Of a stretch of DNA of 64,000 bases, positions 35,575-56,196 are shown piece after piece. The notes under the pieces are model-generated. The model saw only the letters and a list, made by a program, of their open reading frames with translations. It was not told the origin of the DNA and did no database searches. Position 1 is the stretch's first letter; each line of letters starts with the position of its first letter. The stretch is taken from NCBI GenBank assembly GCA_027922465.2, contig BQMF02000235.1, positions 372,001-436,000 of the forward strand, given 5' to 3'. The stretch comes from Turritopsis dohrnii (lineage: Eukaryota; Cnidaria; Hydrozoa; Anthoathecata; Oceaniidae). The position numbers and the translations under genes were made by a program.

Positions 35575-36594
35575 CCTACATGCCGCGCAACCCTTTGTGA
35601 CGAGATCTTCTATCATGTCCGCAGCTTCGTTATTCTTTGCTGACATCTCATTTAATAGTAAGGACTGATGTTGGATCATGTCTCTATCTTGTGTTAATTG
35701 AGTTTTTAGGTTGTCCACTTCTGCCTGTTTTTGGGACACCTGGTCCTCCAGAGAAGAAATTCTGAGTTCCTTTTTGCGCTCCTCCATTTGGTTTGAGAAT
35801 GAGGTAGACTGCTGATTTTCACGTAAAGTTTGTCTTGCGTCGTCAGCTTGTTGCTGCAAGGTCGCCATTTGGATCTTCAATGTGTCCTTTTCCTTCAGTA
35901 GCCGATCCAAAGCTTGCTCATCGTCTTCACGGAGTTGTAGTAATTGATCATTATCCTTTTTGTACTGCATGATGAGCTTCTGTCGTTGATCTAGCTGTAA
36001 CTGCATGTCTGTGATTCTATCCCTATATTCCCCAATGTCATCATTGAGTGCCTGATGCTCTTCCATGTGACACACAAGGGTAGTTGTGATAGAATCCTCA
36101 TGTTCACTTCGCAACTCTGTGATTAGGCTTTGAAGGTTTGTAAACTTATCTTGCAACTGCTCATACTTTATAGTACCTGCCTCAGCATCATGCTTGGCCT
36201 TGTCAGCGATTTGTTGAGCCTTTACCAGTTGTTGATGCTCCTGCTGATACTTAAGTCGATATTCAGCAGTTTTGTTGGCTTGCTGCTGATATTGGTCGGC
36301 AGCTGCTTGAGTGGCTTGTTGAATAGCATCCTTCTTCCTTGCCAACAATTGTAAGTTTCTATCAATGCCGTTTGTATGTAGCAAAGGCGAAACATACTGA
36401 GTTGCAGGTTGCCATGTATTGAGCTCTTCATATACTGCTTTCAGTTCTTTCCTGAGTGCTGTAATGTTGGCGTCTTCACTGATATGACTTTGCTGTTTTT
36501 CTTCTGATAGACGTTTGATGACTTCCCTATCAGCCTTTTGTTCCTGCTCTAATGCTTGAATTCGAGTTTGATCTTGGTTTTTCTCCCTTTCCAA
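35572..36594 (-). pseudogene. Gag coiled-coil region, truncated at the left end of the element
   Basis: 340 codons of almost continuous heptad-rich, Gln/Glu/Lys-rich coiled coil (ALEQEQKADREVIKRLSEEK onward). The frame enters from further upstream: no ATG is present, and the first codon used is TTG. The last 128 or so codons (35577-35960) are the same as the start of the 54506-56146 frame. The protein is cut at GCAAC where Helitron-C sequence starts, whereas at the other end the same frame continues. This is therefore not an independent gene but the front half of the gag region. Confidence 0.8.
35577..35960 (-). repeat. Terminal redundancy, left copy (384 bp)
   Basis: Aligns without gaps to 55813-56196; I see two substitutions by eye (about 99.5% identity). 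Confidence 0.92.
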
Positions 36595-36611
36595 TAACCA
36601 AATTCGTTTCT

Positions 36612-37337
36612 TTAAGTCCTCCTTCTCCTGTCTAGCGGTCCGGTTGGACTACAGCCATTCCATCTCCTCGATGGTATAATTTGCGTTTGTCTCGACTTGT
36701 GCGGAGTATGCGCTACAAATTGCGCTGACGTAAGCATCGCATAACTTGGTTCGTTGCTGATAAGATATTGCTCCCAATCTTGTGGTGACACAGGCAGATG
36801 ATGCAGAGTATTTGTTGACTCGAACACATCATAGATCCAACCAATGTAGTTGTTAATTGGATCCTGGACTGCATTCGTTCCCACAGTCGTTGCTGTGATG
36901 TCAATTGGAGTAGAAAAGGTAAAAGGTGGTGTGTTTACCTTACCCATTTGCTCAGTTGACTTTGCTCGCTCGAGTTTGATGCTTTGATCAATCATATCTT
37001 TGCAGGCGCATGTACCAGTCTTGTGATATTTGACTCTATCAAATGGAACTGGATAATGCTTCAGTTCTGGATGGTTTATCCATTCACAGAATTCCAATGG
37101 CACAAGATCTTCTTGAGCCAACATGTGACCCAAGTCACAGTTGCAATCACCTATCAAATACTTGTAACCATTGATGATAACTTCTTTATTTGCGTGCTTG
37201 GGCAAGTCAGGAACTTGTCTTAACACAGCTTCAGCAGATATTCTGTGTCTCGTGATCCATTCACATAACATTTGATTATAATATTTATCAGCGTCTTCAT
37301 ATGCTTGTGTCAACTTCTCATGACTTTGTTGACTCAA
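36612..37337 (-). pseudogene. Gag-region ORF with clustered cysteines
   Basis: 241 codons, beginning at a TTG that overlaps the stop of the previous ORF. It has an N-terminal helical segment, then GDCNCDLGHML, EFCEWINHPEL and GTCACKDMI, a compact Cys/His group that may bind metal. The C-terminal part is Pro/Thr-rich. The frame ends 18 bp before the coiled-coil frame, which is itself open across the junction. A frameshift within one larger gag precursor is the simplest reading; overlapping ORFs are the alternative. No homologue recognised. Confidence 0.55.
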
Positions 37338-38725
37338 GAGGTGTTAGATAAACAACCCTTCTTCGCAGATGCGTAAAAACTGCTTGCGGATTTTGGGAAT
37401 AGATGACGTGTCGCGTCCGCAAATGCTGAATTTGCTGATTCAGCAGATGGCTTGTCCGCAAAGGTTACGCCCATTGTCGGTACACCCTTTTGAGATGTTG
37501 GCGCAAACCGATTTTTCCCGCCAAAGTCTTTGTCCGCAAAGGTCGATTCCGCAGACCACTCTGCCGCAAATGGTCTTTCTCTATTTGCCGCAGACGTCTT
37601 GTCCGCAGACCGATAATCCGCAAACGACTTATCCGCAGACCATTTGTCCGCAAAGGTCGATGCCGCTAGTGGTCTGTCCGCAGATAGTCGCGGATTTGGT
37701 GTTTTTTCCGCATATTGCAGAAGTCTTCGATACTTCGAGGAAGCATCCGCAGCGTTAGACGCCGCAGACTCATCATCGACTCGAGTACCCTTGATGACGC
37801 GTTCGTCCGCAGCTAACGGCGTGCTTGCCGCAGCCTCGAAACCGTCATTTCCTCGTAAAGGGGAAGCACCTGCGGCCTCGTTCGCCGCAAGTTCGTCAAC
37901 GACCCTTCTTTTGCTGCTACCTCGAGTATCCACATCCGCTGACCCAGTGTCCGCAGACTCACCTCGAGGTTGATAAGCTTGTTTGGCCAATTTTGATAGT
38001 TTCTCAACCGTGTCACTTCGCCGTCGTTTGAAGTGACGTAAGCGATTATTTAAGGCTCGTTTTAATAAACCTTTCCTTAATTGGTCTGTTGGATTTCTCG
38101 TTACTAATCCCTTTGTAAGAGATTGTGGTAAAGTTCGCGTGCCCATTTTCCCTTGTTTAGCCATCTTAATAAGCTTTTCTGCTAAAATCTTCTGGTGATC
38201 TAGTTTTTCTGCTAATAATGATAATTCCAAAAGTATTGGTTTCAATGTTTCTGAGCTTCGTAATTGGGCCAATTGTTCGTCTGTAATTGGAGACTGCTTG
38301 TTCCCAAATTTTCTGCTATCTTCTGCGTTGAAAGTTGTGAGAGCCGATAAGATCGTGAAGAACTTTTTCCGCTCGTCTGGATGGATTTTCTTGTCTTTCA
38401 AATATTTGACGATTGCTTGTCGTATTCCATATATCGTTATATTCTCGAAATTCAGGGTTTTCTCTTCGTATCTTGATTCATTTGATAATAGATCCCGCAA
38501 CATTCGTACTTCCGCAGCGTCTAGTTTAGAAGTACGTGGCAAAACAAACGGCCCGTCATAAGACATACTGGGTGTTTGTTCCACCCGATCAGCACCGTCC
38601 GAGGACATAGTGGCGTCTGATTCGTGTTGGGAAACTGAGTTGTCTGATGGAATTTCCCATCCTGCTGATGTGATGCTTTCCGTCGTAGACATTGTGTGAG
38701 GACTAGGTTCGAAGAATGGCAGCAA
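37334..38725 (-). CDS. First gag-region ORF of the giant retroelement
   Basis: 463 codons following a leader of about 335 nt downstream of the primer site, so it is the first ORF of the presumed genomic RNA. The N-terminal third is acidic and Ser-rich, and the middle is helical. A basic cluster (NRLRHFKRRRSDTV, about residues 225-240) could act as a nuclear localisation or nucleic-acid-binding signal. The C-terminal 150 residues are low complexity with recurring S/F-A-D-K units, visible in the DNA as repeated tccgcag/tccgcaaa. Position suggests a matrix-like gag segment. I recognise no fold. Confidence 0.6.
   Translation of the reverse strand: MLPFFEPSPHTMSTTESITSAGWEIPSDNSVSQHESDATMSSDGADRVEQTPSMSYDGPFVLPRTSKLDAAEVRMLRDLLSNESRYEEKTLNFENITIYGIRQAIVKYLKDKKIHPDERKKFFTILSALTTFNAEDSRKFGNKQSPITDEQLAQLRSSETLKPILLELSLLAEKLDHQKILAEKLIKMAKQGKMGTRTLPQSLTKGLVTRNPTDQLRKGLLKRALNNRLRHFKRRRSDTVEKLSKLAKQAYQPRGESADTGSADVDTRGSSKRRVVDELAANEAAGASPLRGNDGFEAAASTPLAADERVIKGTRVDDESAASNAADASSKYRRLLQYAEKTPNPRLSADRPLAASTFADKWSADKSFADYRSADKTSAANRERPFAAEWSAESTFADKDFGGKNRFAPTSQKGVPTMGVTFADKPSAESANSAFADATRHLFPKSASSFYASAKKGCLSNTS
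37380..37960 (-). repeat. Coding minisatellite in first gag ORF (tccgca-type units)
   Basis: tccgcag/tccgcaaa units recur roughly every 15-30 bp over nearly 600 bp, giving the Ser-Ala-Asp and Phe-Ala-Asp-Lys repeats of the protein. Confidence 0.65.
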
Positions 38726-39497
38726 GTCCTGTTGGCGTTAGCCCGATGTAATTGTAATTTTCCTGATGGATAGTTACCCCCTTTCCGTCGTCGGTTTCGC
38801 CGCTCGTCAGCTTAGATACCTGGGGTTAGTATGCGTAATGTTCAATAGGCGTAGCAATATACCTGATAGATATTGTACTCTACTTACGTCTTTAACTTAT
38901 TGGAGCACACCAGTACCGCGTTTCACGTGTCCAAAAGTTCTTCTAATATAGCATCCGCTGGGATAAATCAAGTTCCGTCGGCTAGCTAATATTAGGTACC
39001 AAATTCCCTAGCTTGTTACTTTTAATGTCACTTTATTTACAAATCAATTGCCTTGTGGATGCCCCACGTTGGGCGCCAGTATTGCGTAGGAAGTATAACC
39101 CAAAATTATAAAACCACTAAACATCAATACTCCTACTTCTCAGCAGGTTGGTGTGGGGACGCCAGTTACGGACCACAAGGTATTCACACAACAAAAAGTC
39201 AATTTTTCTCTTGTTACAAACGTTCTCTTTGGTTGATATATGTCCAAGAGTTATATGCCATAAACTAATATACTAATAAAAGATAAGTCGTGATGGTTCA
39301 ATCAGTCTTCTGATATACTTAGAGTGATCAATTCTTCGTATAAAAGTTTCCTTCTTGAAAAACTAAAGTGTATACAATAATGTTTATCACTGTATCGTTG
39401 CTAAAAAATGAGTACTGAAAAACTAAGTAAAACGTTCATGTATATATACAAAATTAATGTTTGTTTACAAATAAGTGTTAAAATAAATGTCCAAGGT
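38726..39497 (-). promoter_or_regulatory. Single non-coding region of the retroelement (promoter, leader)
   Basis: The only long gap between env and gag. It contains the primer binding site 419 nt after the env stop, then a leader to the first gag ORF. A TATATATA run (39439-39450) upstream of the primer site could be the promoter, and TTTATT at 39032-39037 gives AATAAA on the minus strand. A purine-rich ggaaaggggg lies near 38776-38785 in element sense. Whether the sequence upstream of the primer site is a solo LTR cannot be decided from one copy. Confidence 0.5.
39061..39078 (-). promoter_or_regulatory. tRNA-Lys primer binding site
   Basis: On the minus strand TGGCGCCCAACGTGGGGC, 18 nt that match the tRNA-Lys(1,2) primer sites known from several retroviruses. 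It is the start point for minus-strand DNA synthesis by the encoded RT. Confidence 0.88.
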
Positions 39498-42400
39498 TCA
39501 TATTGCCTTGTTTGGCAATGTTTCGTCTTCATCATCGTATTTACGCTTACTCATGCCAAAACTTGTCGTAACTACGTTCGTTTCCAATCCTTTTCCCACG
39601 CGATTTTCGTAACCTCTAATTACTTCGGCAGATTCGTGTCTTCTCATGCTCGTGTTAATCCCCATTGTTGACATTCCGATGTCATCCATTTTATTGCCCA
39701 ATTTAATCACCGGATAAAGGTGTTTGCTTTTCACATCATGTGGTTTACCGCCTTTCATCTTTTTCTCATTATCTGTAATTTGATTCTTTTGTTGACATTT
39801 CTTCATGTCGTCGTCATCCGACATCAGTCCTTTGTTCACCGCCGCCGTTGAATTAAGTTGCTTAATCTTGTCCCAATTTTTGACATAAAACCGGTATTGT
39901 AATTGGCTCTCGTCAGGCCGCAAAACAACTCGTGTCACTTGTGAAGTCGCCGCTCTCTCACACTTATTTTTTCTTCGGGTCAAAGGGTGAAATTTCGGCT
40001 GCCGTTGCTTCTTGTTCCACTCCTTGCGGATTTTCTCTGCTTCTCGTCCGATTACCTCAATCCATTCCACATATCGTACCGAATAACATTGTGAACAATT
40101 TACCCATTCTGAAGTTGTTCTGTCGCAAACGTATACGTACCTTGTTAGATCGTTAGTTTTGCATTTTGTGCAGTAAGGTTCCCATAATGGTAATTCCTTA
40201 GGATGTTTTGGTTTGTTAACTTCATTGATTTGCGCAATTGTCAGGTAGTTTCCTTCAACTGGTCGTATTGCTTTTCCCACTTTTCTGATGTTTTGTACCA
40301 CAGTTACAAAAACAGTACATCCTGATAATGTGATCATCGTCGTCCGCAAAACCGTTTTGAGTTGACTGCTCATGGGTACTGCGATTATTACGAGTTCCAA
40401 AATTACTGGTCCAAGTAATATTATGCTTGTCCCGAAAACCTTTAATATGCTTATTCTGTGTTCCCGTATCATTGCACGTATTGTCTTTCGTGGTTGCGTT
40501 ACATGGTAGACTGACTGCTTTGCCGCTTTGTACTCAGCATTGGTTCTTTCCCACTTTGACATTGTGCAAGAGATGACGCCAATCATCATTAAGGCCAATA
40601 CCCAAACGATAATTAGTATGATTGCCTGTGCTGTTATGCCATCCACTTTTATCACGAAATAGTCGGTGACTATTGCCGCACTTGTGAGTGTGACGATCGT
40701 GAATACTACTGCGAATATCTTGCGATATGTCATGCGCTTTCCAATACCTTCGAACGTTTTCCGCCATTGCTGTAACTTATTTTCTTCCTGTTCACGTTTC
40801 CCATGACTCAGGAGGTTGATTTGATCCGAAAACTTTCCAACTTGCTTGCGTATTCTTCCAGCCTTTATACCCATTCGTATTAATGCCACTGCGCCTATTA
40901 CTAGCATGATACTAGCAATTCCAATGAGCACATATGTTCCATACTTGATCACCTTCTTGATTATATCTGTGACAGGATCTGTTACCTTCTTTACGATGTC
41001 TAACCCTTGTTTTATAACTTCCGTTATCTTCTTGTAAATCCACCGTGTTCCATACTTGGCAATGTAGTTTATTGAAGTCGAGACAGCATTCCAGAACTGC
41101 TCAAAACCTTTAAGGAAAAAGTCCAAGTTCAGCTTGAGGTTCCACCACCTAAGACTTGATGCTAATGCTTCAATATCTTTGACAACCAATTCCTCAACCT
41201 GTTCGATCTTGTTGTTTAAGAATATCATACGTACTCCGAGGGATATTATCTTTGCGGAATTAATATCCACCATTAAGGCGAGCTTCGCAAAAGCGTCTTC
41301 CAACTTTACCCCATCATCAGCTGTCTGCAACCATGTCCTCATTTCACGTTGATGATTGAGTCGTTGGTTACGTATGTTGATATTCATCTGCCGCGTATGA
41401 TTCTGGTATGATGTAATATTCTTTTCAGGTATTGTGAACTCGAAGGTTTCCAAAAATACCCAAAGTTGATCATCCCAATAAAGTTCAGTGGGCAATTCAG
41501 CCTTTACGGCTCCCCATGCTGTGATGTTATTAGCTGGATCTAGCTGGTGAATGAAATCGGTAATCCATTTAATCCGAATGATCTGCAAATTTTCCATGAT
41601 ACTTATTGGTAAATGGTATTGCTGCATGATGTCGTATGTTAACCCTTGCGCGGTTAAGTTATACAGTCGCTGCAACATCTTTACCGTTTCATCCGCCTTC
41701 TTATAACGAGCTTCATCATCCGTTACGTTGATTAACATCAGGAAAATGTATCTTGCTTCCCTGGTTTTGTCCCACTTGACAGTTTCAATCATCTTGCCGC
41801 GATATTTGTCGTATATCACCGGGATCCACTTATCCTTGTGCGTTCGCCACGTGCGATTGAACAAGATAGTGTAGTTTCCACTCTCTATGTTGCAGTGAAA
41901 CGTCATAACCAGTGATCTTGTGTTTATGCGTAGATCGTTTCCAACTCTCCGTCTTGCGTGGAATCCGATCTTCCGATCCTTTACCGGCATTATAACCGGG
42001 TTCAGGGTCAGAATCCGAATAAAAGGTAATGTTTCCTGCAGATGCAATGATTTAAAGGTATCGTTCTGCGAAATCTGCGATTCTCCTAAACAGAATACCT
42101 GTCCGATAGTTGTCAGTATATAATGACTTCCTTTGTAGGTATAGATGGTATTTTTCCGTTCTACCCCTTTCCATTGCCATTCAATGTGCGTTCTTTGAAC
42201 CTTTATTGACACATAACCATGATTATATAACATCAAAGGATCATTTTCGGGAAAAATTTTCTTTGACATCATATGCTTCCCGCCCTCCATCAAACAAAGG
42301 TACAACGGGGGTTGGGCTGTCCCTATGGTTACATTGTTGGTTCCAAGACTCCTAGTCGCTTGTGGTTTATCTATCTTCTGATAATGAATTCCTGTGTTTT

Positions 42401-42737
42401 TAGCTGTTATATTATGCCAACCGCGCAGCTGATTCGCGAACATAATCAGTGCCATGGCTTGGTGCATCTTGATAGGCCAAGCTGGTCGCACGATCTGCAA
42501 TACCTCGACATATTCATTCACTGCGAAGTTCCCGCATTCAATCAGGATTCCCTTTTCCTGACCATAAGGTTGACCAACAAACCAATTGCTACTGGTCATC
42601 TTTCCCTGTATATTGACCAGATCGAAGCCAATGTGGAACTTGTTAGGGTTTGAATCTGTCATGATCAGTTCTTCCTTCTTGATTACTACATTAAGTTCAG
42701 TCTCGATTACTTCATACTGTACGCCGGTTAATCCCAT
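39498..42737 (-). pseudogene. Env-like multi-span membrane glycoprotein, C-terminal part
   Basis: 1079 codons. The first 590 or so residues look extracellular, with N-glycosylation sites (NIT, NLT, NHT) and a helical region before the membrane. Five hydrophobic spans follow near residues 595-626, 669-688, 702-722, 766-787 and 797-815. A Cys4-type zinc motif follows (CTKC...C...CSQC, about 852-884), then a basic tail. The frame is open upstream of the first ATG for about 20 codons, and the Harbinger lies 90 bp upstream, so this is the continuation of the 45574-46983 ORF after a frame change. Five spans plus a zinc motif are unusual for a retroviral env. No family recognised. Confidence 0.6.
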
Positions 42738-42827
42738 TGTTTTCGGGCAAAGGTAGTATGGCGCATACTCGGACCATTTGGTGGGTTTATAGGTTCTATC
42801 GCGTTATCCGCATTCTTCCGATACATT

Positions 42828-42854
42828 AGGCACCTTACGCAAAACACGACGGTA
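42828..42854 (+). repeat. Harbinger left terminal inverted repeat
   Basis: 27 bp, exact reverse complement of 45549-45575; att precedes it. Confidence 0.95.
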
Positions 42855-43107
42855 AGCCCTGGGACGGCAAAATTGCTTAAAAAATCATTGTGCGCATGCG
42901 TATTTACTGGGAATCACCATCGTCGTTCTAGAACTTTAAACCTTGGACGTCAATAGAGTGGTTTTGTCGTTGTATCTACAACGTGAGTATTTTTTTCTTC
43001 CTTCTTGGCACAAAGCAGAGTACTAATATATATAAACTTAAGTTAGCTTCTAGGTTAGCTACTACACTGATTTATGCAGTTTTTTGTTTATTTAATTTTA
43101 GACTTGT

Positions 43108-44146
43108 ATGATGGATAAAGAAAACACATCAGTTCAACAGCTGGATACCAACAGCACCACCACCAACAAGAAGAGACAGTAAGTTTAGCTTTTCTTACTG
43201 ATTAGCTAGGTTGTTCTAACCATATTGTGGAGCTAGCCCTGGTTTTCTTGTTTGTGTTCTTTGTTTTCAAAATGGAAGTTCGATTCAAAATAAATCAACA
43301 ACTGGGAGCCAAGTTCTTAAAAATGGTACCTTTCTGACTGGGGGCTAGCTAGCTAAACTTTTTATTTTGCTGTGTTCCTTGATATGCAGCTGTAAAATTA
43401 TAGCTGTAAATATTTTTGTATTATTTTTGTGTAGATCCTCCATGGATTGGACTACAGAACATGATGAATTACTTATACGAGAAATACTTGCAGTGGAACC
43501 TTACTTACACAAACCTTCAACTGTCAAAAGAGGCCAGTCTTGGACTCAAATTTCAGAAATTTTAAATGCTATTCCTGATCCAATATTTCGTGTTACACAA
43601 CGAGCAGTTAGAGAAAGATATAATTATCTTGAAAAAATATTTATCAAGAAAATTGCCAACGAGGAAAAATCTACAGGAACAAATGATCCTGAATTAACAG
43701 AAGTTGAGAGAGGTATAGAAGACATTATTGCGAAAACTAAAGAGGCTGCCTTGCATTATGATGATACTGCTAAGAAAAACATAGATGCTGAACGAAAAAA
43801 GGCAGATGAAGTAAGAAACAAGTGCTTGGAAACTTTTAGTGAATCCAGAAAAAGATTAGGATCACCTGAGGATGAAGAAAGTCCCAAAATTAGGAGAAGG
43901 GGCACTGGAAGTGAAACGATAGCATTTCTTCAGGCAAAAGCAGAGAGGGATAGTGAATTACGTTCAAGAGAATTAGATATAAGACAACAAGAAAGTAGCA
44001 ACCAACAGCAGTTGATTGTAAGCATGTTGAATAAACAAGAAGATATGCAGAAACAGCAGCAAGCTCTACTAATGGCTAATATTCAAGCTCAGCAGCAGCA
44101 GATGCAACTATTTATGGCTATGATCGAGAAAATGAAAAAAGACTAA
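43108..44146 (+). CDS. Harbinger Myb/SANT-like DNA-binding protein
   Basis: Exon 1 is 43108-43178 (ATGATGGATAAAG start). The intron has gtaagt and gtgtag borders, and exon 2 (43435-44146) continues in phase. The protein has a trihelix/Myb-like domain at MDWTTEHDELLIREILAVEP through SWTQISEILN and TQRAVRERYNYLEK. A charged coiled coil follows, and a Gln-rich tail (QQQQMQLFMAMIEKMKK). In Harbinger transposons this partner binds the ends and carries the transposase into the nucleus. No damage seen. Confidence 0.85.
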
Positions 44147-44323
44147 CTATATTATTTTGAGGAAATCTTTTGACTTTGTTTGGTAGCTACAAGCCTAAAA
44201 AACAGTTATTGAAGACTGTATGTATCTTGGTTGTAAATAGGAAAGAGAATCATAAAAAGCAGCCATAATAAGTTATAAAATATTTTAGTGACTTTTGTTT
44301 GTTTACACTTTCTCTTTACAATG

Positions 44324-45400
44324 TTATTGAAAATACTCTCTTATTGTTGGGGGATTAATTTGAAAGAAGTCAGTTGTTGTTGAATGGTATAAACATGTGT
44401 GTGCATTTCTTAATAAAGCACATGAAACGTACATTTTGCCCACAGCACTTAAACCCATCTTCAAATTCTTTTTGAAATCGAGGAAAGCAAAATAATTTGT
44501 AATATCTGCGAACACCCACTCCACTGCGATTCTGACTTTGCTCATTGATTTGTTGTATAGTGATTGATTTTGTGTGAGTCTTGGACCCCGAAATGGTGCT
44601 TGCAACTGTAATCGAAGTGGGTATGCAGGGTCTCCATATATGCAAAGTGAATTTCTATTAGGGCCATATGAGAACTGTTGTAGTTGTCCCAAAAGACCAG
44701 AGTCAGTCAACATGCCACTATCGTGCTTTCTCCCTTCATAAGGTCCGGCTAAATTCGCTATGATACCGTTTGGAGCAACAACTGATTGAAATTTTATACT
44801 ATGAATTCTTTTATGTCCGTTATACACTACCCGTTGGTCATGGTTTGGGCGACAAATAGGTCGGACAGTCCCATCAACAAAGCCCCAACAATTGTCAAGA
44901 GCGGCACCTTTAGCATGAACAGCATCAGCAAAAGCTTGAAGACAGTTAGGGTTCAGCCATGGTTGATTAAGGTCCTGTAATAAGTATCGGTAATTTTCAT
45001 ACACGTGATTAACCACTTGATTTGACATCATGGACAACTGCGGAACAGGCCGCCCAAAACGCGGCATTATATCGCTGTATCTGCAAGGATAGGAAAAACG
45101 TTTCAGAAATATACACAATGCTTCAACACCATCAACTTTAACACGATTATAAGTAGTGATTTCTTCTGGAATTTGTAAAACTTCTGCTAGATCAAAAATA
45201 TCATTTTTTAAAAATCTGAATTCTGCTCTGCATTCATCGTCGGTGAGGGTATCTAGTTGAAAGTGTTCATAAGTCCAATAAGGGAAATCTGGATTCTTTG
45301 ACGTATTCATATTATATAACAAAATGAAGTCTTCATCATCTATCAAATTTTCTGTATATGCAGTAAGTAAACATTCTCGTGTTTTTCTAAAAGTTGCCAT
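44324..45400 (-). CDS. Harbinger DDE transposase (DDE_Tnp_4 type)
   Basis: 358 codons, ATG to stop. Catalytic triad by position: D in CWGFVDGTVRPI, D in CIYGDPAYPL, E in VRIAVEWVFADI. The segments HKRIHSIKFQSVVAPNG and YEGRKHDSGMLTDSG are classic for PIF/Harbinger nucleases. Length is normal and the frame is intact. Together with the plus-strand partner gene and perfect inverted repeats it makes the element a good candidate for autonomy. Confidence 0.93.
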   Translation of the reverse strand: MATFRKTRECLLTAYTENLIDDEDFILLYNMNTSKNPDFPYWTYEHFQLDTLTDDECRAEFRFLKNDIFDLAEVLQIPEEITTYNRVKVDGVEALCIFLKRFSYPCRYSDIMPRFGRPVPQLSMMSNQVVNHVYENYRYLLQDLNQPWLNPNCLQAFADAVHAKGAALDNCWGFVDGTVRPICRPNHDQRVVYNGHKRIHSIKFQSVVAPNGIIANLAGPYEGRKHDSGMLTDSGLLGQLQQFSYGPNRNSLCIYGDPAYPLRLQLQAPFRGPRLTQNQSLYNKSMSKVRIAVEWVFADITNYFAFLDFKKNLKMGLSAVGKMYVSCALLRNAHTCLYHSTTTDFFQINPPTIREYFQ

Positions 45401-47009: not shown

Positions 47010-47678
47010 TTACTTGATGTAATTTGTTGAGTTCATCACGCTAGTGGAGAACCTTGTCACATTTATGGTTTGTGTTGCTTGTATAGTGTTGGTCTGATTC
47101 ATTGTGTTAGTCATGTTGATGACTTGTGTGCTTGTACTATTTACATACTGTGTGCTTGTTATCCGATTGGTGATGTCGATGGTAATCATGCTTGTTTGGT
47201 TCTCAATCCGTGTCTGGTTGATCGTAAACCATCGTGTAGCATTGACTGTTATCGTAGCATTAACCATCTGCGTTTGATTGGTTACCCAGATGCTGCGTGT
47301 TGGTACCATTTTATCATTTGGGAACTGAGCCAAACATCGTTGGAAACATGATATCCGTGAGTTGAGTATGCAGCGCCGAGCATCCTGAGTGTTATTGGCA
47401 TAAAACCGTCGCTCATTAATTAAACCACAAGTGTTTGTAGCCATCATGATTGGTTCGTTACGATGCACCCTCCTCTGTATTCCTATCGTCAAGGCTGCCA
47501 TGTAAACCCTGCTTCCATGTTGCGCGTAATATGTAGGCGTAGCACCGTGATCCACACAATATTCCCCTAATTCCGGTATTGTGACGTATGATGGGCAGCT
47601 GGTCAGGTTTTTGACCGCGTATGAGGTTATCAGCAACTTTATGCAAATTTCCCGGTCCAATCGCGTGTCATTAGTCAT
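47010..47678 (-). pseudogene. Env-like glycoprotein, N-terminal part, densely glycosylated
   Basis: 222 codons. The N-terminal half has paired cysteines (SCPSYV, GEYCVDHG, NTCGLINE, RCILNSRISCFQRC). The C-terminal third is a Thr/Asn-rich run with more than ten N-x-S/T sites (NQTQMVNATITVNAT and similar), a mucin-like stalk. The ATG overlaps the pol stop (ATGACTAA). A signal-peptide-like segment lies just upstream in the pol frame (about 47934-47860), so the true env start is probably there, with a frame change between. Confidence 0.6.
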
Positions 47679-50600
47679 CTCCCATACGGTTCGGTTTGAT
47701 GCTAAGATTTGATGCTCCTTGGTGTGTCTTGTACAACGTGTTCAGTACTAGCATGGTCATGATGTTATACTGCCAGGGCTTGGGGAAATCATTAATGTGA
47801 CAGCTTACTATTGTTGTTGTTGCCGGATCCGCCAATGTGTACACATTCTGAAAACTTTGTGCTGTGGTCCCTGTAACCATTGTTGAGACGGTGACCAGTA
47901 CATACAGCATTGTGCACCAATTATTATTGTTCATGCGAAAGGTTCCATGTGTTGCTTCCACAGGTTCATGATGCACTTTCAGTTCGGAACGGTAAATTGG
48001 CCCAATCCGTTCGGATCGCACCTTATGTGCTGCTACCAAATGTCTCTTCTTAAAGTCATTCATTGGTTTCTTTTCCTGCTTCTTGGCGCTTGCAAGGGCT
48101 TGGAAGTCCAATGGTAAGACTGATAATTTGGGAACATGAGTAATTCCCAGTCTTTCCCTCAGATTATTCATGTGATGCTTCATGAAATCCTGATGCCTTA
48201 TGGAACAACCATAAGAAAGTTTCCGCACTTGGTGATGGTTCTTTATGGCTTTGACAGGTAGCTCCTTCAACGCCACTGGATACCGTTGTTGTAGTTCAAT
48301 CAGATTGCTGCTTGCCGCTTTATTATCCAAAATGATCCAAACTTTGTCCATTGTGTCGCTTTGATATTTCTTCCATAGCGAAATGGTCCAAAGTGCACAC
48401 CTTTCATAACAGCTAAGGTTATAGCTCTGGTTATATTCCAGGATAATATCTGCTGTTGATACTAAGTGCTGACCTATGCATTCCCAAGTCACGGTTCCGT
48501 CCGTTCGTTGGTTTCCGCCTTCAGGCCACGCTAAGGTTCGTTTCAGTACTAAGGCTGAGCACTGATGGACTGTGACTGAAGTGTAGACAAATATTTCACG
48601 CAGCTTGTTCCATCGTGACATGCCGAGCTTCCTTTCCAATTGCGGCTTCCTTTGTTTGGTTTTCGCTTTCCGCAATTTAATCCATGGTAACGCATCACTT
48701 ATGTCGCTTGGTACGACCAATGACGTCAATGATATTCCACTATCTTGATGGTGACTCTTAGCGTATTGGTGATGATTCTGCGAGGTACCATAGGGCACAA
48801 ATTGATAATTCCTTGCGGTGAAGTCGCAAATGTTTCCAAGCGATAAATATTGTGGATCTCTTCCTTCCTTCAAAATGGTAACCAAGTCCGTCCTAGCCAC
48901 TTGGTTGTCAAGCATGACGTAGGTTGGTTCAGTTGGGTCATGATTATAGCGATCAAGCAATGCACGTGCCCATATGATATTGCGTTCATTCTTGATCAAA
49001 GGCAACCCTTTGCTGCCTTCCATTGACATGTAACGTGCCGACACTACATGTTGAGCAACCATTTGCCATTCTACATGCCATGGGTCTGCTTTATCCATGT
49101 ACCGCTTAAATGATGATCGTCGCATCACCAGAGCCGTACTTTCTGAGTCAGTGACTGAGACATAGATTTCTAATCGCACATCATGTAACCGTTGTTCGCA
49201 AACTGGCCCAGGGTTTAAGGCTTCACCGCTGGTAGCTCGGATTTCGGTTTCCGTATTTGCTCTCAATCGGTTATCCTCTTGAACCAATCCATGGTTGAGA
49301 CACATGATGCAAGCTGGGGTTCTTGAACGGTATTTAGCAATGTTCTTTATCAACTTGTCTTGTAAAAATTGATGACGCTCACGATAAAGTTCCGTTAAGT
49401 CTCGTAATTTGCGCCAACCACTGTTATCGAAAGGCGTTCCCTGATTGCGCCATGATGCATGTCGATACAAGTCGATTTGTCGCTTGCTCGGTGTTTGGCA
49501 ATTCTTAAGATGCTCATGAATTTGTGAAACCCATGTACCAGTAAAGTCACGTACTATCGGGTTCATGATTCCAACAGCTAGGATGTCATCACGAGGCATC
49601 ATAAGGCCAGGTGGCACCAAAATCTTGTGAAAAAGTCTTGCTGGTGAGGGCATTTCTTCATGACTGCTTTCCATCAACAGCAAGGTGTCCAAATCAGTTA
49701 TGATGTGTTCATCAGCCAAGGTGTATTCTGCACCCCCTTCAATCTGCTTCATCTGCACCATGCGGAGCTTGATCTCCCAAATCTTAGCTATGCGCTCAGT
49801 TGATTTGACCAAACCAGCCAAACAGTCCCTAATTGACTCCTTCTTTAGGTCCAACTCGGTCTGCATTTTCAACTTCATTCGGTTGAATAGAAATGATCGT
49901 CTATCAGCTATCATTCGCTCCGAAATGGTCAACCTTGGTAGATCATCCAGGTATTCAAGAGGTATATGAATGTGAATTGGTCCTCCGACAGGTCCTGGGG
50001 TTGATGGTTCGCCATCTTTTAAGCTTCTCAGGTCCTTATCGAACCTCATCCCGTAATGTTGCGGTGGCTTTAATAACTGCAATTCAGCCGCAATGTTGTG
50101 GAATGTGGTTAGCTTTTCTAAACGGGTCATTCTGCTCAAAATGTCGTCATCAGTGATATCATTGTTGACGTGATTGATTCGACTATAGCCATCACCCTTA
50201 TTCTGACCTCTTTGCAACTTCCATTGGTCATTACCCCGGGATGCCCGACCAACGGGCCCTGCTACTTCAGTAGATCCACAGGCTTGCGACCTTTGTTGCA
50301 ATTCGTCGATCTTTCGCTGTGCATGTTCAGGCGTGATACCATGTGCAGTGGCGAGTGGCGTTTCGATATCAACAATCAATTCCTGGTCGTGCGTAACCAA
50401 GTCCAAGATGATTCTGCCATCAAATCCAGCTGGATAATAACGTGGCTGCATCTCCATACCGGCAACAGCTAAGATTGGTGCGTTAACAACCATTATTGCC
50501 CTGCAGTCCGGATTCTTGATGCGTATCTTGGTGTCAATCCGATAATGCTGATCCCGTAGTAAGTGTATGCGTTGCGGGAAATTGATGATGTATCCAGCAA

Positions 50601-53600
50601 ATTCCAAACGATACTCAGGCAATTTGATTCCGCGTACTTGCGTGGAGAAGACAACCTGAGCGAAGCCAAGTTCCTCACCCACATGGTGCACCGTTGCAGT
50701 TATGTCGATTTCGTCGAACAATTGTTCCAGCATTCCTTGTTGATGAGGATGTTTCTCCCCAATCTTGCCAATCACTCCCGTAGAGCCAAGCCCGTTGGTT
50801 CCTCGCTCCGTCCGTGCCTCAACCAACGTCGTGACTTCCTCTACTGGCGGCGTTTTGACACATTGTAAGACAGCTTGCGCTATCTTATCGCCTGGTTTAA
50901 CTGACACAGGCTGATTGGTGAAATTTCGTATCACCACCGTTATTTCGTTGCGATAGCCTGGGTCGATGGTTCCACCCTGTACAACTAATCCCTTTAAGAC
51001 GTTACCGGAGTTCGATCGAATGTCGATAAAGGTTCCCTTTGGTGGTTCCATGACAAGACCAGTTTTGATTCGCGCAATACCATTTGGTATTATAAAATGA
51101 TTAGTTGGTGACCGTACGTCATATCCAACGTCCAAGCTGAAGTGTCTCTTAGGCATGATTGCACCTTCCTGGGTACGTTGGACCTTGAGCATCTCGGCTT
51201 GTCCCACGAACTGGATTGTGCGTCTTGCCTTCATCGATTCGCCAGATCCTTTATTGTGATCACCCGACAGGTTCAGATGTTCAGCAATGGTTTTGGGCGG
51301 TTCCGTGTCCACCGGGATTGTTAGTGAATCGATTTGCTTGCGGAGCTTGTCCCATTCTTTGGTGAACTGCCACTTGGCGTTGGCGTCAGGAAGCGCCCAT
51401 CGTGGCGTTGGTTGTGCATCATCAGACCTTGATAATGCATCAGCGAGATACTGCTTAGCCCCTTCTAAATACCATATATCACGAATTCCAGCCTGAATCA
51501 ACATTCCAATGGCTCGTAACCGCCGCTGGTTCATTTGCGTAGACGAGTTCAGCGTGTTGGTAAAGAGATTGATTAGCGGCATGTGATCAGTAATAATAAT
51601 CACCTTTGTCCAATCTATGCGATAATAGGTTTCTTTGTAAGCAAGAAGTATGGCGGCTAATTCTCGGTCCAAGGTTGACTGCCGAACAGTGTTGGATTGA
51701 AATGAACTTGAGCCCATTGCCACTGTTCGTCCATTTTGGAAGGCAACATAACCGGCTGCTATGTCGCTGGCATCAGTGAAAATGTACGTTACACTGTTGA
51801 TGTTCGGAATCGTCATTGCACGTGCTTCGTACAATTCCAATACGATTTCCATCAGCTTCTGCCAGTCTTCCGTAGTTAGCTTTCGTTCTTCGTCCGGAGT
51901 TTCCGCCCTTATTTTGTGGAGTAGGAACTCAACCTTCGTTCTATAATTGCGTATAAATTGGCTATAGTAGCCAAGCATACCAATTATTCGCTCCACAGGT
52001 TTCTTGCTTATCAATCCTCGTCGCTGGTCCTTGCCGACGGCTGCGAATGTAGCAATCAGTTTTGTGTACAAGTTCTCTATGATGCCCTCATTTACGTCTT
52101 TCGTCGAGTTTTTGAGGTCATAGCCCAGGTATGTGACGTTTATCATACCGAACTGACTTTTTCGCATATTGACCATCAATCCTTTGCTGTGGAGAAAGTG
52201 CAGCAATCGGTTGGCTTCTCGGAATGCCTCGATTACTGACCTCAGTTTTTGGATCAGGTCATCTATGAACGACTTAGTGGACTCGTGGATTAGCATGTCC
52301 AATATACCTTGCACCAACATGTCAGTAATCCCCTGGTCGAAGTGTCCAGGCGATCCATGCCAGCCTTGTGGTAAACCGGTTATTACATAGGTTCCTTGAT
52401 GCGTTATGAATGCCGTATGTATTTGGCTCTCCTTTGTTATCCGATGGTTATAATAACCGTGTCGCAAATCCAGTTTGTTGTAAACGTACTCGACTGTCGG
52501 ATCGTGGTTTTTGCTTAAGTTGTCAATGACTTGGTCTACCGATTTTAACGAGTTTAATCCCATCTTGCTTTTAGCGTTTAATTCCTTGAGGTTGATGACT
52601 AACCGGATCCCTTTATTGTTTTCTTTGGGGACCGCAAACATCTGAGCGCAGCCAGTTACTGTTCGCGTTTTCTTTATACATCCCCAAGCTTCCAATTGGT
52701 CCAATTCCCTTCCGATTGCTTCAGTGATTGCTGCTGAAGTTTTAATTGGCTTGTTTCTTGACAGCACTTGTCCAGGCCAAAGTTCAATCGTGACTTCGGG
52801 AAGTTGGCATGGCGGCATGTTCTCTGGTTGGAATTTCTCCTCCCATTTCTTACGCCATTCAGGTGTGAACAATTTTGCTGCCTCTGGGTGCATTGTCCCT
52901 TCCATAGGCCTTACTGGCTTATTATACAGCAGGGGTATTTCGTACACCTGTTCCGGTATGACATATTGTTGGATCTCCTTCTTTTGCTCTTCTGTCAGAT
53001 GACTGCAGTCTGCTAGGATGTTTTGGACAACTTGTGACTTCTTATGGGAACGCACATGTTGTGTTTTGATCGTTTTTCGGTTGATGTCGATCAACTCCCA
53101 AGCATCATTCCCTATCCAAATGCCCAATCCATTATAACGGAAGAAATCTTCACCAAGTAGCGTGAAGTGTACGTTTCCGTCCACAATGGCAATTTCAGGC
53201 ACAGTGATAACCCTGTTGCCGATTATCACTTCCAATTCAGCAATAGCAACTACGTTTAGGTCGTGTCCTGTTGCACTTTTCAGGTCCACTGTCTTGTCAT
53301 AATCCATTGGCAGACCAATCTTCTTGGCTACCTTCAATGGCATGACCGTCTTTGCCGCCCCTGTGTCTAGTAAGGCAACAAATCTTTTCTTCGTAGCTGC
53401 TGTGAAAACCATAATGGGCTTAGTTTGTAATGCCTCCAGTTCGTCGCTTTCCATCGTGCTAACAGTAATCGAGTTGACCGAGTTGATACTGTTACTGGTT
53501 CTTTGTACAGACGCCGATATCTGACTTTGAGCCAGTTGTGTAAAGCACACTTGATTTCCATGGTCTATGCGACATACTTCGCACACCCTTGATTGTTGCA

Positions 53601-54546
53601 CTGGTTGCACTTGTTGGATCGTGCTTACCGTGGGCTGATGCATCATTGGTTGTTGAACCATGTTTGTGTTAGGTACCGACAATCTTGAGTTTGGGCAATT
53701 CCTTGAGTTGTGCCCGTCTTGTCCGCAATTATAACACGAATGCTTTGGTCGGTAATTCTGCTGCTGTTGTTGTTGCCTAGGAGCACTACATTCCTGGGCG
53801 TAATGTCCTGGCTGGCCGCAATTGTAGCATGTTACTGTACCAATGTAGTTTTGCCTCTGGGGTGGAGTCGTTGGTTGATTGTAACCACGTGTCATTCCTC
53901 CTCCCCTGTAGCCTCTCCCCCTTGAGCTGAAGCGCTGCCTTTGTTGTTGGCCATCGCTTTGCTGGGGCTGTTGAGTCTGTTGCTGATTTTGCTGTTGATT
54001 CCCTGTGTTGGAACCAAACTTTCCAGCATTCTTGGGGTTTCTACTACACTCCTTGGTGGTATGTGTGTTTGAGTTTGGATGATACTTACACATAGGTTTT
54101 ACCACTTGTTCATCATCCGAAGAAGAACTAGAAGTGTCTGCGCGTTCCTTCTTTTTGTCTTCTTTCTTCTTATTGGCTTTCTTTGGTTCTGGCTTAGCCG
54201 CAGCTTGTTGCTTCTTTGGTGCTGGTTTCTCTTTCACTGCGTTGATCGTATCCGAACCCAATATTGTGAGTGCTTGGAGGATATCCTCAGCCGACATGTT
54301 AGGTCGAGATAACTTTGCCACTTGCAGTAACTGCGAGAATTGTGGAGTCAATCCTCTTTCAATAGCGGTTTTGTAGAGCTCCTCTGAGGCTCCACTTTTT
54401 AATGCTGCTTCAGATATTGCCATCTTGAAGTCATTAAATTTGCCTTCTTCCATCTTGACGTTCATCAAAGTTCGTCGTTTCATATCTCGCATGGCTGCCG
54501 AGTTTTCACGTTCGTCCAAAAATAAGACGGTCGAATGTGATGACAT
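47671..54546 (-). CDS. Pol polyprotein: zinc knuckles, protease, RT, RNase H, dUTPase and further folds
   Basis: 2291 codons, uninterrupted. Approximate residue positions: capsid C-terminal part 1-95; low-complexity Lys and Gln region; CKYH..H..C and two CCHC knuckles (239-283); aspartic protease LLDTGAAKTVM (about 390) and LLGEDFF; RT with LDLRHGYY (about 690), GLPQGWHGSP and FIDD (about 757); RNase H with TDAS (922), DRELAAI, TDHMPL and LADALSR (1033); dUTPase with DVGYDVRSP (1139), RSNSGN, GGTIDPGYRNEI, GDKIAQAVL and RGTNGLGSTG (1249). A second dUTPase-like beta fold without catalytic motifs follows (1270-1400). A long helical region comes next, then two related RNase H-like domains (1790-1880 and 1980-2070). 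The end holds a signal-peptide-like stretch (from 2204). RT, protease, RNase H and dUTPase active sites look intact. No HHCC or D,D-35-E integrase can be seen. Confidence 0.85.
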   Translation of the reverse strand: MSSHSTVLFLDERENSAAMRDMKRRTLMNVKMEEGKFNDFKMAISEAALKSGASEELYKTAIERGLTPQFSQLLQVAKLSRPNMSAEDILQALTILGSDTINAVKEKPAPKKQQAAAKPEPKKANKKKEDKKKERADTSSSSSDDEQVVKPMCKYHPNSNTHTTKECSRNPKNAGKFGSNTGNQQQNQQQTQQPQQSDGQQQRQRFSSRGRGYRGGGMTRGYNQPTTPPQRQNYIGTVTCYNCGQPGHYAQECSAPRQQQQQQNYRPKHSCYNCGQDGHNSRNCPNSRLSVPNTNMVQQPMMHQPTVSTIQQVQPVQQSRVCEVCRIDHGNQVCFTQLAQSQISASVQRTSNSINSVNSITVSTMESDELEALQTKPIMVFTAATKKRFVALLDTGAAKTVMPLKVAKKIGLPMDYDKTVDLKSATGHDLNVVAIAELEVIIGNRVITVPEIAIVDGNVHFTLLGEDFFRYNGLGIWIGNDAWELIDINRKTIKTQHVRSHKKSQVVQNILADCSHLTEEQKKEIQQYVIPEQVYEIPLLYNKPVRPMEGTMHPEAAKLFTPEWRKKWEEKFQPENMPPCQLPEVTIELWPGQVLSRNKPIKTSAAITEAIGRELDQLEAWGCIKKTRTVTGCAQMFAVPKENNKGIRLVINLKELNAKSKMGLNSLKSVDQVIDNLSKNHDPTVEYVYNKLDLRHGYYNHRITKESQIHTAFITHQGTYVITGLPQGWHGSPGHFDQGITDMLVQGILDMLIHESTKSFIDDLIQKLRSVIEAFREANRLLHFLHSKGLMVNMRKSQFGMINVTYLGYDLKNSTKDVNEGIIENLYTKLIATFAAVGKDQRRGLISKKPVERIIGMLGYYSQFIRNYRTKVEFLLHKIRAETPDEERKLTTEDWQKLMEIVLELYEARAMTIPNINSVTYIFTDASDIAAGYVAFQNGRTVAMGSSSFQSNTVRQSTLDRELAAILLAYKETYYRIDWTKVIIITDHMPLINLFTNTLNSSTQMNQRRLRAIGMLIQAGIRDIWYLEGAKQYLADALSRSDDAQPTPRWALPDANAKWQFTKEWDKLRKQIDSLTIPVDTEPPKTIAEHLNLSGDHNKGSGESMKARRTIQFVGQAEMLKVQRTQEGAIMPKRHFSLDVGYDVRSPTNHFIIPNGIARIKTGLVMEPPKGTFIDIRSNSGNVLKGLVVQGGTIDPGYRNEITVVIRNFTNQPVSVKPGDKIAQAVLQCVKTPPVEEVTTLVEARTERGTNGLGSTGVIGKIGEKHPHQQGMLEQLFDEIDITATVHHVGEELGFAQVVFSTQVRGIKLPEYRLEFAGYIINFPQRIHLLRDQHYRIDTKIRIKNPDCRAIMVVNAPILAVAGMEMQPRYYPAGFDGRIILDLVTHDQELIVDIETPLATAHGITPEHAQRKIDELQQRSQACGSTEVAGPVGRASRGNDQWKLQRGQNKGDGYSRINHVNNDITDDDILSRMTRLEKLTTFHNIAAELQLLKPPQHYGMRFDKDLRSLKDGEPSTPGPVGGPIHIHIPLEYLDDLPRLTISERMIADRRSFLFNRMKLKMQTELDLKKESIRDCLAGLVKSTERIAKIWEIKLRMVQMKQIEGGAEYTLADEHIITDLDTLLLMESSHEEMPSPARLFHKILVPPGLMMPRDDILAVGIMNPIVRDFTGTWVSQIHEHLKNCQTPSKRQIDLYRHASWRNQGTPFDNSGWRKLRDLTELYRERHQFLQDKLIKNIAKYRSRTPACIMCLNHGLVQEDNRLRANTETEIRATSGEALNPGPVCEQRLHDVRLEIYVSVTDSESTALVMRRSSFKRYMDKADPWHVEWQMVAQHVVSARYMSMEGSKGLPLIKNERNIIWARALLDRYNHDPTEPTYVMLDNQVARTDLVTILKEGRDPQYLSLGNICDFTARNYQFVPYGTSQNHHQYAKSHHQDSGISLTSLVVPSDISDALPWIKLRKAKTKQRKPQLERKLGMSRWNKLREIFVYTSVTVHQCSALVLKRTLAWPEGGNQRTDGTVTWECIGQHLVSTADIILEYNQSYNLSCYERCALWTISLWKKYQSDTMDKVWIILDNKAASSNLIELQQRYPVALKELPVKAIKNHHQVRKLSYGCSIRHQDFMKHHMNNLRERLGITHVPKLSVLPLDFQALASAKKQEKKPMNDFKKRHLVAAHKVRSERIGPIYRSELKVHHEPVEATHGTFRMNNNNWCTMLYVLVTVSTMVTGTTAQSFQNVYTLADPATTTIVSCHINDFPKPWQYNIMTMLVLNTLYKTHQGASNLSIKPNRMGDD

Positions 54547-56146
54547 GTGGTGCAGGTGTTGTGGCGTCGATATGCTCTAACCAACGTTCAACAGCATGGC
54601 TAGGTTCGCCATCCAAGCACCATTTTAAGGCGTCCGCCTTGGACTGGTCATCCCATCCGCTTGTTATGGCTCTAAAATCTTTTCGGAATTTCAGATACGA
54701 CAAGGTAAAACCGCCTTTACTGCGATAACCATCGTATTTGGGTAGATCTTTATAGGTTAAGGTGAACCTAGGTCGAGCTGGCGGAGCTGGTGGCGGCGCT
54801 CCTCGGGTTGGAGCTGCTGCACGGAAGATCGGATTGATCGTGTCAGCTGCCAGTTCCTGGTCTTCCTCAAACCTTTCTGATAGCAATTGTTGGGGATTAT
54901 CCTGGTCGAATATACCCGCTGCCTGTGCTTCACGAGTGGTCATACCATTTCGTGGATGCTTGACAGTTGGTGCCACTTGTGTGTATCCGTGTTGCATGTC
55001 AACCACTGGAACGATGGTACTGTTCTGTCTTCTGTGTTTGAATTCAGCTTTTTTGATCATGTTAACTGTGTTTAATGGTTCGAAAGTTGCTGCCTGTAAA
55101 TCATCATCTTGTGAATTGTCATTACCAGATCCTTCCTCGTCAACTGCTGGTGGGCTATCTGGGATTAGTATTGACGTGCCGATTGAAGTGCCTGCATTGT
55201 GAGTTGCCGGTTCTTCTGTCGGGACTGGTACTATTCGTCGTCGTCGAATCGCTGGGGTAGTCGCATTGTCATCGGGATCATTTTGTGGATGTTCAGCCAT
55301 TTTAGCTTCCCATGCTGCCCATTGTGCTGAAGTCATGGATTTGCGTGCCAGTTCCTGGACTTTTTCCCAAGACACTATTGGAACACTTCCCATGCTGTGT
55401 ATTTGGTCAATGAGCTTTCTGCAGTACGTCTGAAACGTTTTCCACTTGTTCTGCGTATGTCTTATTCGTGCTGGTAATCTGTCCTTGATGATGCGTTTCC
55501 ATAGAGCCTGACCGATTTCCGGCTCGTCCTCGTTCATCTTGTTCCAGACTAACTCAACCGCTTGACGTTCTAGCTCGTTGCCTAATCTGGTTACTTCCTG
55601 TAATGCGAGGGTTAACTGCTCGTTGGTTCTACGATCAGTTTCAGCAACTTCTTCCTCAGTTTTCTTCTTCTCCTCTTCATACTTCCTGATCATGTCATCC
55701 TGTTGTGCTTTGAAGTCTGCAAGCTTGTCTTTCTGTGTTTGTAAGTCGGATTTTAGATCTGCAAAGCCATCCAATTCACTGTTAAGGTTAGCGATGCATG
55801 TATCCTTTTCTATACATGCCGCGCAACCCTTTGTGACGAGATCTTCTATCATGTCCGCAGCTTCGTTATTCTTTGCTGACATCTCATTTAATAGTAAGGA
55901 CTGATGTTGGATCATGTCTCTATCTTGTGTTAATTGAGTTTTTAGGTTGTCCACTTCCGCCTGTTTTTGGGACACCTGGTCCTCCAGAGAAGAAATTCTG
56001 AGTTCCTTTTTGCGCTCCTCCATTTGGTTTGAGAATGACGTAGACTGCTGATTTTCACGTAAAGTTTGTCTTGCGTCGTCAGCTTGTTGCTGCAAGGTCG
56101 CCATTTGGATCTTCAATGTGTCCTTTTCCTTCAGTAGCCGATCCAA
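54506..56146 (-). CDS. Gag, second part: coiled coil and capsid start
   Basis: 546 codons. The first 110 or so repeat the end of the 35572-36594 frame, with CIEKDTCI continuing the coiled coil. A helical domain follows (LVWNKMNEDEPEIGQALWKRI), then an acidic linker and a Pro-rich stretch (PTRGAPPPAPPARP). The end carries LPKYDGYRSKGGFTLSYLKFRKDFRAITSGW and ALKWCLDGEPSHAVERWLEHI, a retrotransposon-gag (Ty3-like capsid) N-lobe. The rest of the capsid lies in the pol frame, which overlaps by 41 nt. A frameshift inside the capsid domain, upstream of the zinc knuckles, is not where gag-pol frameshifting normally occurs, so decay is as likely as recoding. Confidence 0.75.
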   Translation of the reverse strand: MDRLLKEKDTLKIQMATLQQQADDARQTLRENQQSTSFSNQMEERKKELRISSLEDQVSQKQAEVDNLKTQLTQDRDMIQHQSLLLNEMSAKNNEAADMIEDLVTKGCAACIEKDTCIANLNSELDGFADLKSDLQTQKDKLADFKAQQDDMIRKYEEEKKKTEEEVAETDRRTNEQLTLALQEVTRLGNELERQAVELVWNKMNEDEPEIGQALWKRIIKDRLPARIRHTQNKWKTFQTYCRKLIDQIHSMGSVPIVSWEKVQELARKSMTSAQWAAWEAKMAEHPQNDPDDNATTPAIRRRRIVPVPTEEPATHNAGTSIGTSILIPDSPPAVDEEGSGNDNSQDDDLQAATFEPLNTVNMIKKAEFKHRRQNSTIVPVVDMQHGYTQVAPTVKHPRNGMTTREAQAAGIFDQDNPQQLLSERFEEDQELAADTINPIFRAAAPTRGAPPPAPPARPRFTLTYKDLPKYDGYRSKGGFTLSYLKFRKDFRAITSGWDDQSKADALKWCLDGEPSHAVERWLEHIDATTPAPHVITFDRLIFGRT

Positions 56147-56196
56147 AGCTTGCTCATCGTCTTCACGGAGTTGTAGTAATTGATCATTATCCTTTT
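55813..56196 (-). repeat. Terminal redundancy, right copy (384 bp)
   Basis: Counterpart of 35577-35960 in the same orientation. Here the gag frame continues into the following codons, while at the left end the sequence stops against Helitron-C DNA. Confidence 0.92.

Follow-up and report, generated by a model that had tools for sequence, protein, structure and literature searches.

The Hepadnaviridae, the nackednaviruses and their relatives (Pliego virus, proto-nackednaviruses) are animal reverse-transcribing viruses with episomal DNA and without integrase; the Hepadnaviridae and nackednaviruses have tiny genomes, are protein-primed and have no aspartic protease. Caulimovirids have genomes about half of 17.5 kb in size and a primer site of the tRNA-Met type, and among them the petuviruses encode a single polyprotein. 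Here we describe an element in a 64,000-nucleotide stretch of the Turritopsis dohrnii genome (C235:372001-436000, called "the window" throughout), which we read, at a probability of roughly 0.78, as the endogenous copy of an animal reverse-transcribing virus working like a pararetrovirus: a 17.5-kb circle with a giant polyprotein and with neither a pair of long terminal repeats (LTRs) nor an integrase. The likeness is to hepadnaviruses and their relatives in the integrase-less, presumably episomal way of life, to petuviruses in the probable single polyprotein, and to foamy viruses in the type of primer site; unlike the Hepadnaviridae, the element has a retroviral-type protease and a tRNA-type primer site (exact in four copies), and unlike the caulimovirids it has a primer site of the tRNA-Lys type. 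"Pararetrovirus-like" here names a way of life, not an ancestry.

In two studies, caulimovirids are described without integrase and LTRs, and their capture in repeats as filler DNA is proposed (PMC10377300; PMC13308828); endogenous copies are tandem or rearranged and biased to repeats, according to the first of them (PMC10377300). The element likewise shows no integrase or LTR pair in the six copies that we mapped, and its protease, reverse transcriptase (RT) and RNase H form the same core. Unlike the Caulimoviridae, however, it resides in an animal, carries a dUTPase and an envelope-like region, shows no movement-protein family by Pfam in the frames scanned, and has an RT that stands apart from that of cauliflower mosaic virus (CaMV) in the best tree. 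We class it as pararetroviral in its way of working and place it in neither the Caulimoviridae nor the Retroviridae, since defining features of each were looked for and not found.

Large elements with LTRs are the other point of comparison. Burro of planarians is described as a giant LTR element with integrase, a huge polyprotein, a dUTPase and an env-like part, and the foamy-like endogenous retroviruses of fish are up to 17 kb long (PMC6431247); unlike Burro, the present element has no detected LTRs or integrase. Odin, the lokiretroviruses and Troyka are deep animal lineages near the retrovirus/Gypsy split, and Odin and Troyka, as described, differ from our element in having LTRs and integrase and in having no env (PMC9040795; PMC12440569). 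Odin has a tether and a second RNase H (PMC9040795), and the lokiretrovirus phylogeny used integrase. Among the literature matches listed, with subscription journals and bioRxiv thinly covered, we found no animal integrase-less element of this kind except hepadnavirus relatives.

Layout and coding content of the window copy

The sequence-only reading had proposed a ~17.5-kb copy, circularly permuted and terminally redundant, with gag split between its physical ends, a single internal non-coding region and no flanking direct LTRs. Each of these proposals is borne out by the features below.

35577..56196, minus strand: the entire integrated copy, with circular permutation and terminal redundancy (repeat comparison and circular map)
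35577..35960, minus strand: terminal redundancy, downstream copy, gag-like coding (382/384 identical to 55813-56196)
55813..56196, minus strand: terminal redundancy, upstream copy, gag-like coding (both differences synonymous)
38650..39497, minus strand: the single, internal non-coding and leader region, extending into the start of open reading frame (ORF) 1 (sequence and copy alignment)
39061..39078, minus strand: primer binding site TGGCGCCCAACGTGGGGC (exact match)
38777..38786, minus strand: purine tract GGAAAGGGGG, candidate plus-strand primer (sequence and copy alignment)
42827..45576, no strand assigned: DNA transposon, a later insertion foreign to the element (DDE_Tnp_4 and 42-bp inverted ends)

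The two ends align pairwise without gaps over the whole redundancy, and taking the redundancy (384 bp) and the transposon (2,750 bp) from the 20,620 bp of the copy leaves a unit of 17,486 bp. A gag-like frame continues across both physical ends, so that one peptide is found in the tail of the ORF at 35572-36648 and in the head of the ORF at 54506-56200; the label "gag" would follow from position, coiled coil and CCHC motif, and comparison with the Retrotrans_gag regions of 22 database matches gives a signal at the CCHC only. Between 30000 and 62000, the only repeat families that involve the element (among the 20 of 26 direct families listed) are the 384-bp repeat and the inverted ends of the transposon; no pair of direct LTRs is seen there, nor in any of the six mapped copies. 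The element's two parts have a GC content of 42-46%, the host stretches next to the satellites one of 34%, and the rest of the window has no DNA match to 2-kb pieces of the element and no protein match to its ORFs.

As an account of the element, the extent 35577..56196 given by the sequence-only reading stands, but it left unmentioned the transposon, which carries a minus-strand frame for a DDE_Tnp_4 transposase and another frame on the plus strand. We rejected this transposon as a player in the element because it has inverted ends of its own.

The primer site TGGCGCCCAACGTGGGGC, read on the minus strand from 39078 to 39061, is the sole match in the window even with up to three substitutions allowed, and we take its complementarity to be to tRNA-Lys1,2; a tRNA-Lys primer site had been claimed beforehand. 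Downstream of this site, in sense, come the leader, ORF1 and ORF2, then the coiled-coil gag-like region and pol, next the glycoprotein-like frames and a frame with five hydrophobic segments, and lastly the non-coding region and the primer site again:

37334..38737, minus strand: ORF1, 467 codons (no Pfam family above cut-off)
36612..37343, minus strand: ORF2, a second reading frame of 243 codons (ORF list; in C593 a single frame with ORF1, gag, pol and env)
35572..36648, minus strand: first part of the gag-like coiled-coil region, which continues into the breakpoint (Pfam scan and ORF list)
54506..56200, minus strand: gag-like region, second part (ORF list)
47671..54576, minus strand: pol, 2,301 open codons with two CCHC stretches, an aspartic protease, an RT, an RNase H and a dUTPase, then ~1,030 residues without known homologues (Pfam)
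48238..49191, minus strand: tandem duplicated pol domain, possibly RNase H-like (copies 48817-49191 and 48238-48612; self-comparison and model)
45574..47741, minus strand: glycoprotein-like frames of 243 and 488 codons, with 14 and 4 N-glycosylation sequons respectively (ORF list and sequon count)
39498..42803, minus strand: envelope-like frame of 1,101 codons with five hydrophobic segments (hydrophobicity)

The pol frame of 2,301 codons compares with a longest frame of 184 in 200 single-base shuffles of the element, and the protease, RT, RNase H and dUTPase that had been noticed as motifs are all found by Pfam. Downstream of these domains the protein becomes solitary: neither pol residues 1265-2250 nor the envelope-like frame has a match at E<=1 in 5.8 billion proteins, and the sequons and hydrophobic segments of the frames after pol may point to a glycoprotein or envelope role. 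The tandem duplication in pol has a z of 19.8 against 200 shuffles, with 28% identity between the halves, and a low-confidence structure model of the domain has an RNase H-like strand order. Two other copies, on contigs C156 and C593, have open frames of 4,555 codons (from gag almost through env) and 5,461 codons (ORF1 to env), which makes a single-polyprotein ancestor probable; the several frames of the window copy are then probably due to later frameshifts.

Copies in the host genome and their openings

We searched the host assembly (436 Mb, 891 contigs) with the RT-dUTPase piece, which has at least 66 matches, a lower bound because the search scores best candidates only. Matches of 61-92% identity lie on 12 other contigs and at one more place on C235; the remaining ones are 23-40% identical, with a few pieces at the close places in between. 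Six copies were mapped on the 17,486-bp circle, where u counts bases downstream of the primer site:

Window copy: u3118, through the wrap, to u3501; full circle, opened in gag
C156 copy: u3591, through the wrap, to u3545; full circle or nearly, opened in gag
C112 copy: u9409, through the wrap, to u8835; full circle or nearly, opened in pol
C158 copy: from u15183 in env across the primer site to u8778 in pol; partial
C593 copy: u695 to u2; partial, one end at the primer site
C22 copy: gag u3726 to env u15869; partial

All six are colinear on one circle, and three cover it or nearly so at different openings. The ends of other copies had been named in advance as the test of the pararetroviral proposal, and they came out as variable breakpoints on one circular map, never with two non-coding blocks: the 911-bp block gives 13 matching pieces on 9 contigs and occurs at most once per copy. 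In four of the six (window, C156, C158 and C112), the primer site is internal, flanked by the env tail and by ORF1; the exact 18 bases of TGGCGCCCAACGTGGGGC occur once apiece in C156, C158 and C112, and are not found, even with three substitutions, in the stretches around C593 and C22. Directly before the primer site, CGCAATAC is identical in all four aligned copies, while TATATATACAT, near 39448, is common to the window, C158 and C112, the C156 stretch used stopping short of this site. The AAGGGGG of the purine tract is kept in the three other aligned copies, the run being interrupted by T or C just upstream.

Could the circle have been inserted by another, novel recombination enzyme, encoded in the ~1,000 unmatched residues of pol or in ORF1? 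The large homologue-free part of pol is kept in other copies, and the duplicated domain has, by its weak model, the strand order of the superfold to which integrase cores belong. Such an enzyme would tend to leave constant ends, however, whereas the breakpoints vary, lie mostly within genes and in one case carry the 384-bp redundancy, and no tyrosine-recombinase or DDE family was found by Pfam in the element frames scanned; we regard this origin as very unlikely. A DIRS-type insertion was rejected because of the variable ends, and the element also differs from DIRS-like elements in showing no tyrosine-recombinase family in that scan.

The copies have diverged under constraint. Over 711-715 codons of RT-dUTPase, the proteins of the window, C22, C156 and C593 copies are 82-92% identical in all six pairs, and 62-70% of the four-fold sites differ in the same pairs; the RT, RNase H and dUTPase catalytic motifs are kept with few positions changed. 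A conserved protein with saturated silent sites means strong purifying selection over a long time. The copies would thus stem from a lineage that kept replicating between insertions, as a virus or active element, and not from one amplified copy in decay, and a replicating lineage has probably been endogenised repeatedly.

More distant RT relatives, 30-40% identical, lie on C87, C61, C3 (two), C602, C471, C9 (two), C199 and C697, with frames of up to 4,398 codons, and the C-terminus of the window pol has no match in them. That the lineage is one of animals, as had been supposed, agrees with the host genome: Wnt genes mark animals, and 61 Wnt matched pieces were found in the assembly against none in any of 14 control genomes. 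The Wnt matches on C139 and C500 have identical scores, and these contigs may be unmerged haplotypes in the assembly.

Integrase searches and affinities of the RT

The RT-dUTPase piece has 97 matches in 5.8 billion proteins, with an identity of at most 28%. An integrase profile was built from 31 of these Ty3-like matches; it is matched by 94 of the 97 and recovers 63 of 66 held-out Ty3-like proteins. Over the six frames of the window, its best hit has an E of 0.41 (in the ORF1 frame), in keeping with the earlier claim of no integrase in any frame read, and none was found in the window element by Pfam or by comparing the pol profile with Ty3-like integrases; as a control, one Ty3-like protein matches the prototype foamy virus integrase in the PDB at 109 bits. 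Five further copies, two of which are partial, also give no integrase hit with the profile; the three integrases that it detects in the 200 kb around those copies all lie outside them. In two copies, a piecewise Pfam search that starts at RNase H and stops shortly before env ends finds RNase H and dUTPase and no integrase. Three distant RT relatives show no integrase by profile or Pfam in the 3 kb after the RT match, a hint that the absence may be old. Outside the element, the frame at 25145-25498 resembles by eye part of an integrase-type DDE core; it is unmatched by the integrase profile.

The RT itself leans to the retroviruses, as judged from its matches and tree. In the PDB it matches foamy virus at 59 bits (7kse and 7o0h are the entries concerned), Ty3 at 44, CaMV at 28 and murine leukaemia virus (MLV) at 26. 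In a tree of 35 RTs (the window, four PDB fragments and 30 database matches, 39 of the 97 having passed a motif filter and 9 similar ones having been dropped), the window joins foamy virus and MLV with a UFBoot of 92, and CaMV, the sole caulimovirid, joins the Metaviridae.

In its best PDB matches and its env-like region, the element resembles the Retroviridae, foamy viruses in particular. It is unlike them in having no detected integrase or LTR pair and an RT identity of only 23%, and in that RNase H comes directly after RT with its catalytic residues kept (four positions, in 4/4 copies) and that there is probably one polyprotein. As for the retroviral tether and second RNase H, Pfam finds no second RNase H, and the duplicated pol domain downstream is possibly RNase H-like by its weak model. 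The order RT-RNase H, the CCHC and the protease are as in the Metaviridae (Ty3/Gypsy), from which the element differs in having its dUTPase after RNase H and not between protease and RT.

Relatives outside the host were sought in viral contigs, where the RT-dUTPase, env and gag pieces and an alignment of RTs gave pattern matches of which none was confirmed; a satellite word found none there, and RT-dUTPase gave no confirmed match in GTDB genome contigs.

Flanks, proposed capture and meaning

The copy lies between satellite-like repeats:

29500..35576, no strand assigned: left flank, spacing ~855 bp (repeat comparison)
56197..62000, no strand assigned: right flank (repeat comparison)

The right flank resumes ~128 bp earlier in the satellite unit than the point where the left flank stops, and the overlap is 87.5% identical. 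A long target-site duplication was rejected for this overlap, the redundancy of the element being 99.5% identical; to judge by the alignment, they seem to belong to two distinct satellite units and not to a recent duplication, which fits capture at a break. Among the matches listed, satellites related to that of the window occur close to C156, C112 and C593, and also close to C22 by a match to the C156 repeats. The window satellites have spacings of ~855 and 496 bp and inverted arms. Elsewhere in the window, long frames at 10220-13453 resemble by eye a Helitron replicase/helicase and frames at 16111-17264 a Crypton-kind tyrosine recombinase, and an Rfam scan gave nothing at gathering scores.

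Repeats at the window and near several other copies are error-prone for assemblers, and a circular episome or tandem copies could have been mis-joined into repeat-rich contigs. We give this little credence, less than any other explanation considered here: the two copies of the redundancy differ at 2/384 sites, a DNA transposon sits inside the window copy, further copies have other breakpoints on other contigs, and the broken frames of the window copy suggest residence in the chromosome.

On the reading that we prefer, the genome would be a 17.5-kb circle with one promoter and primer-site region, encoding a single giant gag-protease-RT-RNase H-dUTPase-envelope-like polyprotein. RNA from the episomal circular DNA would be reverse-transcribed from a tRNA-Lys-type primer, the circular DNA would normally stay outside the chromosomes, and only rarely would circular or broken-circle DNA be captured at chromosomal breaks by end joining, giving a different opening at each insertion. 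The element's longest purine tract is at u3636, and the window and C156 openings and the C22 5' end are no more than ~520 bases away from it. Pararetroviral DNA has strand discontinuities at primer-site- and purine-tract-like places, and the end of C593 at the primer site together with the openings near the purine tract is suggestive of such discontinuities, by analogy only.

Several points weigh against this reading. The ends of the five non-window copies come from protein similarity and are good to tens or hundreds of bases, the pol stretch at the C112 opening may merely be diverged, and terminal redundancy is detectable in the window copy only. The stretch u3118-3726 holds two of the three openings of full-circle copies as well as the C22 5' end, so the openings may be non-random. 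Self-comparison of 40 kb around the five copies (repeats >=40 bp) shows C156 bracketed by 412-bp direct repeats, 94% alike, at 123118-123525 and 143720-144131 (0.7 and 1.9 kb outside), and C593 by repeats of 524 bp (67%) and of 82 bp (91%); C22 is bracketed by a 40-bp inverted pair. No bracketing repeat of these three contains the primer site; the C156 repeat has partial, weak matches elsewhere among the sequences compared, and the C593 repeats lie in dispersed repeats. A diverged integrase invisible to the profile, or one acting in trans, may be compatible with the data. The RT placement is weak as well, as an approximately unbiased (AU) test rejects neither window with CaMV (0.16) nor window with Ty3 (0.26); of the pararetrovirus-like proposal in the sequence-only reading, the way of life is upheld by the breakpoints of six copies, and an affinity to the Caulimoviridae is not, the RT being nearer to retroviruses with alternatives not rejected. 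Finally, we infer the episomal circle (from the permutation), the RNA, the particles, the end-joining capture, the polyprotein and the envelope function.

Two further points of this kind bear on one specific competitor, a giant LTR retrovirus-like element of which one-LTR circle by-products were recaptured, ordinary LTR-flanked copies existing unseen. Seven of the 13 contigs with close matches (C274, C422, C362, C399, C733, C51 and C138) are outside the mapping, and C362:74783-75115 and C274:572579-572911 hold the leader side of the non-coding block only, both starting at ~u94, a shared edge that could be one duplicated insertion or a common end. The order of promoter, primer site and leader is also that of an LTR followed by its primer site, and the RT leans to the retrovirus side. 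Yet none of the 9 block-bearing contigs has two blocks, the integrase expected of an LTR element was not found, and wherever the primer site was found, in four copies, the block separates the env tail from ORF1, so that we judge this origin unlikely.

The odds favour, if not strongly, a new family-level lineage of animal viruses, enveloped, with a single polyprotein and 17.5 kb of circular reverse-transcribing DNA, standing near the retroviruses and having lost or never had integrase and LTRs; a pararetroviral life would then have arisen or survived independently of the Caulimoviridae and Hepadnaviridae. For the absence of integrase within the group of retroviruses, Gypsy elements and caulimovirids, the literature that we found describes plant viruses only. 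If the reading is true, obligate integration has been dispensable more than once, and the element is a second case of the origin of a pararetrovirus. The finding also suggests that tools demanding LTRs or integrase would miss such elements, and the copies now at hand allow endogenisation to be dated and living relatives to be sought.

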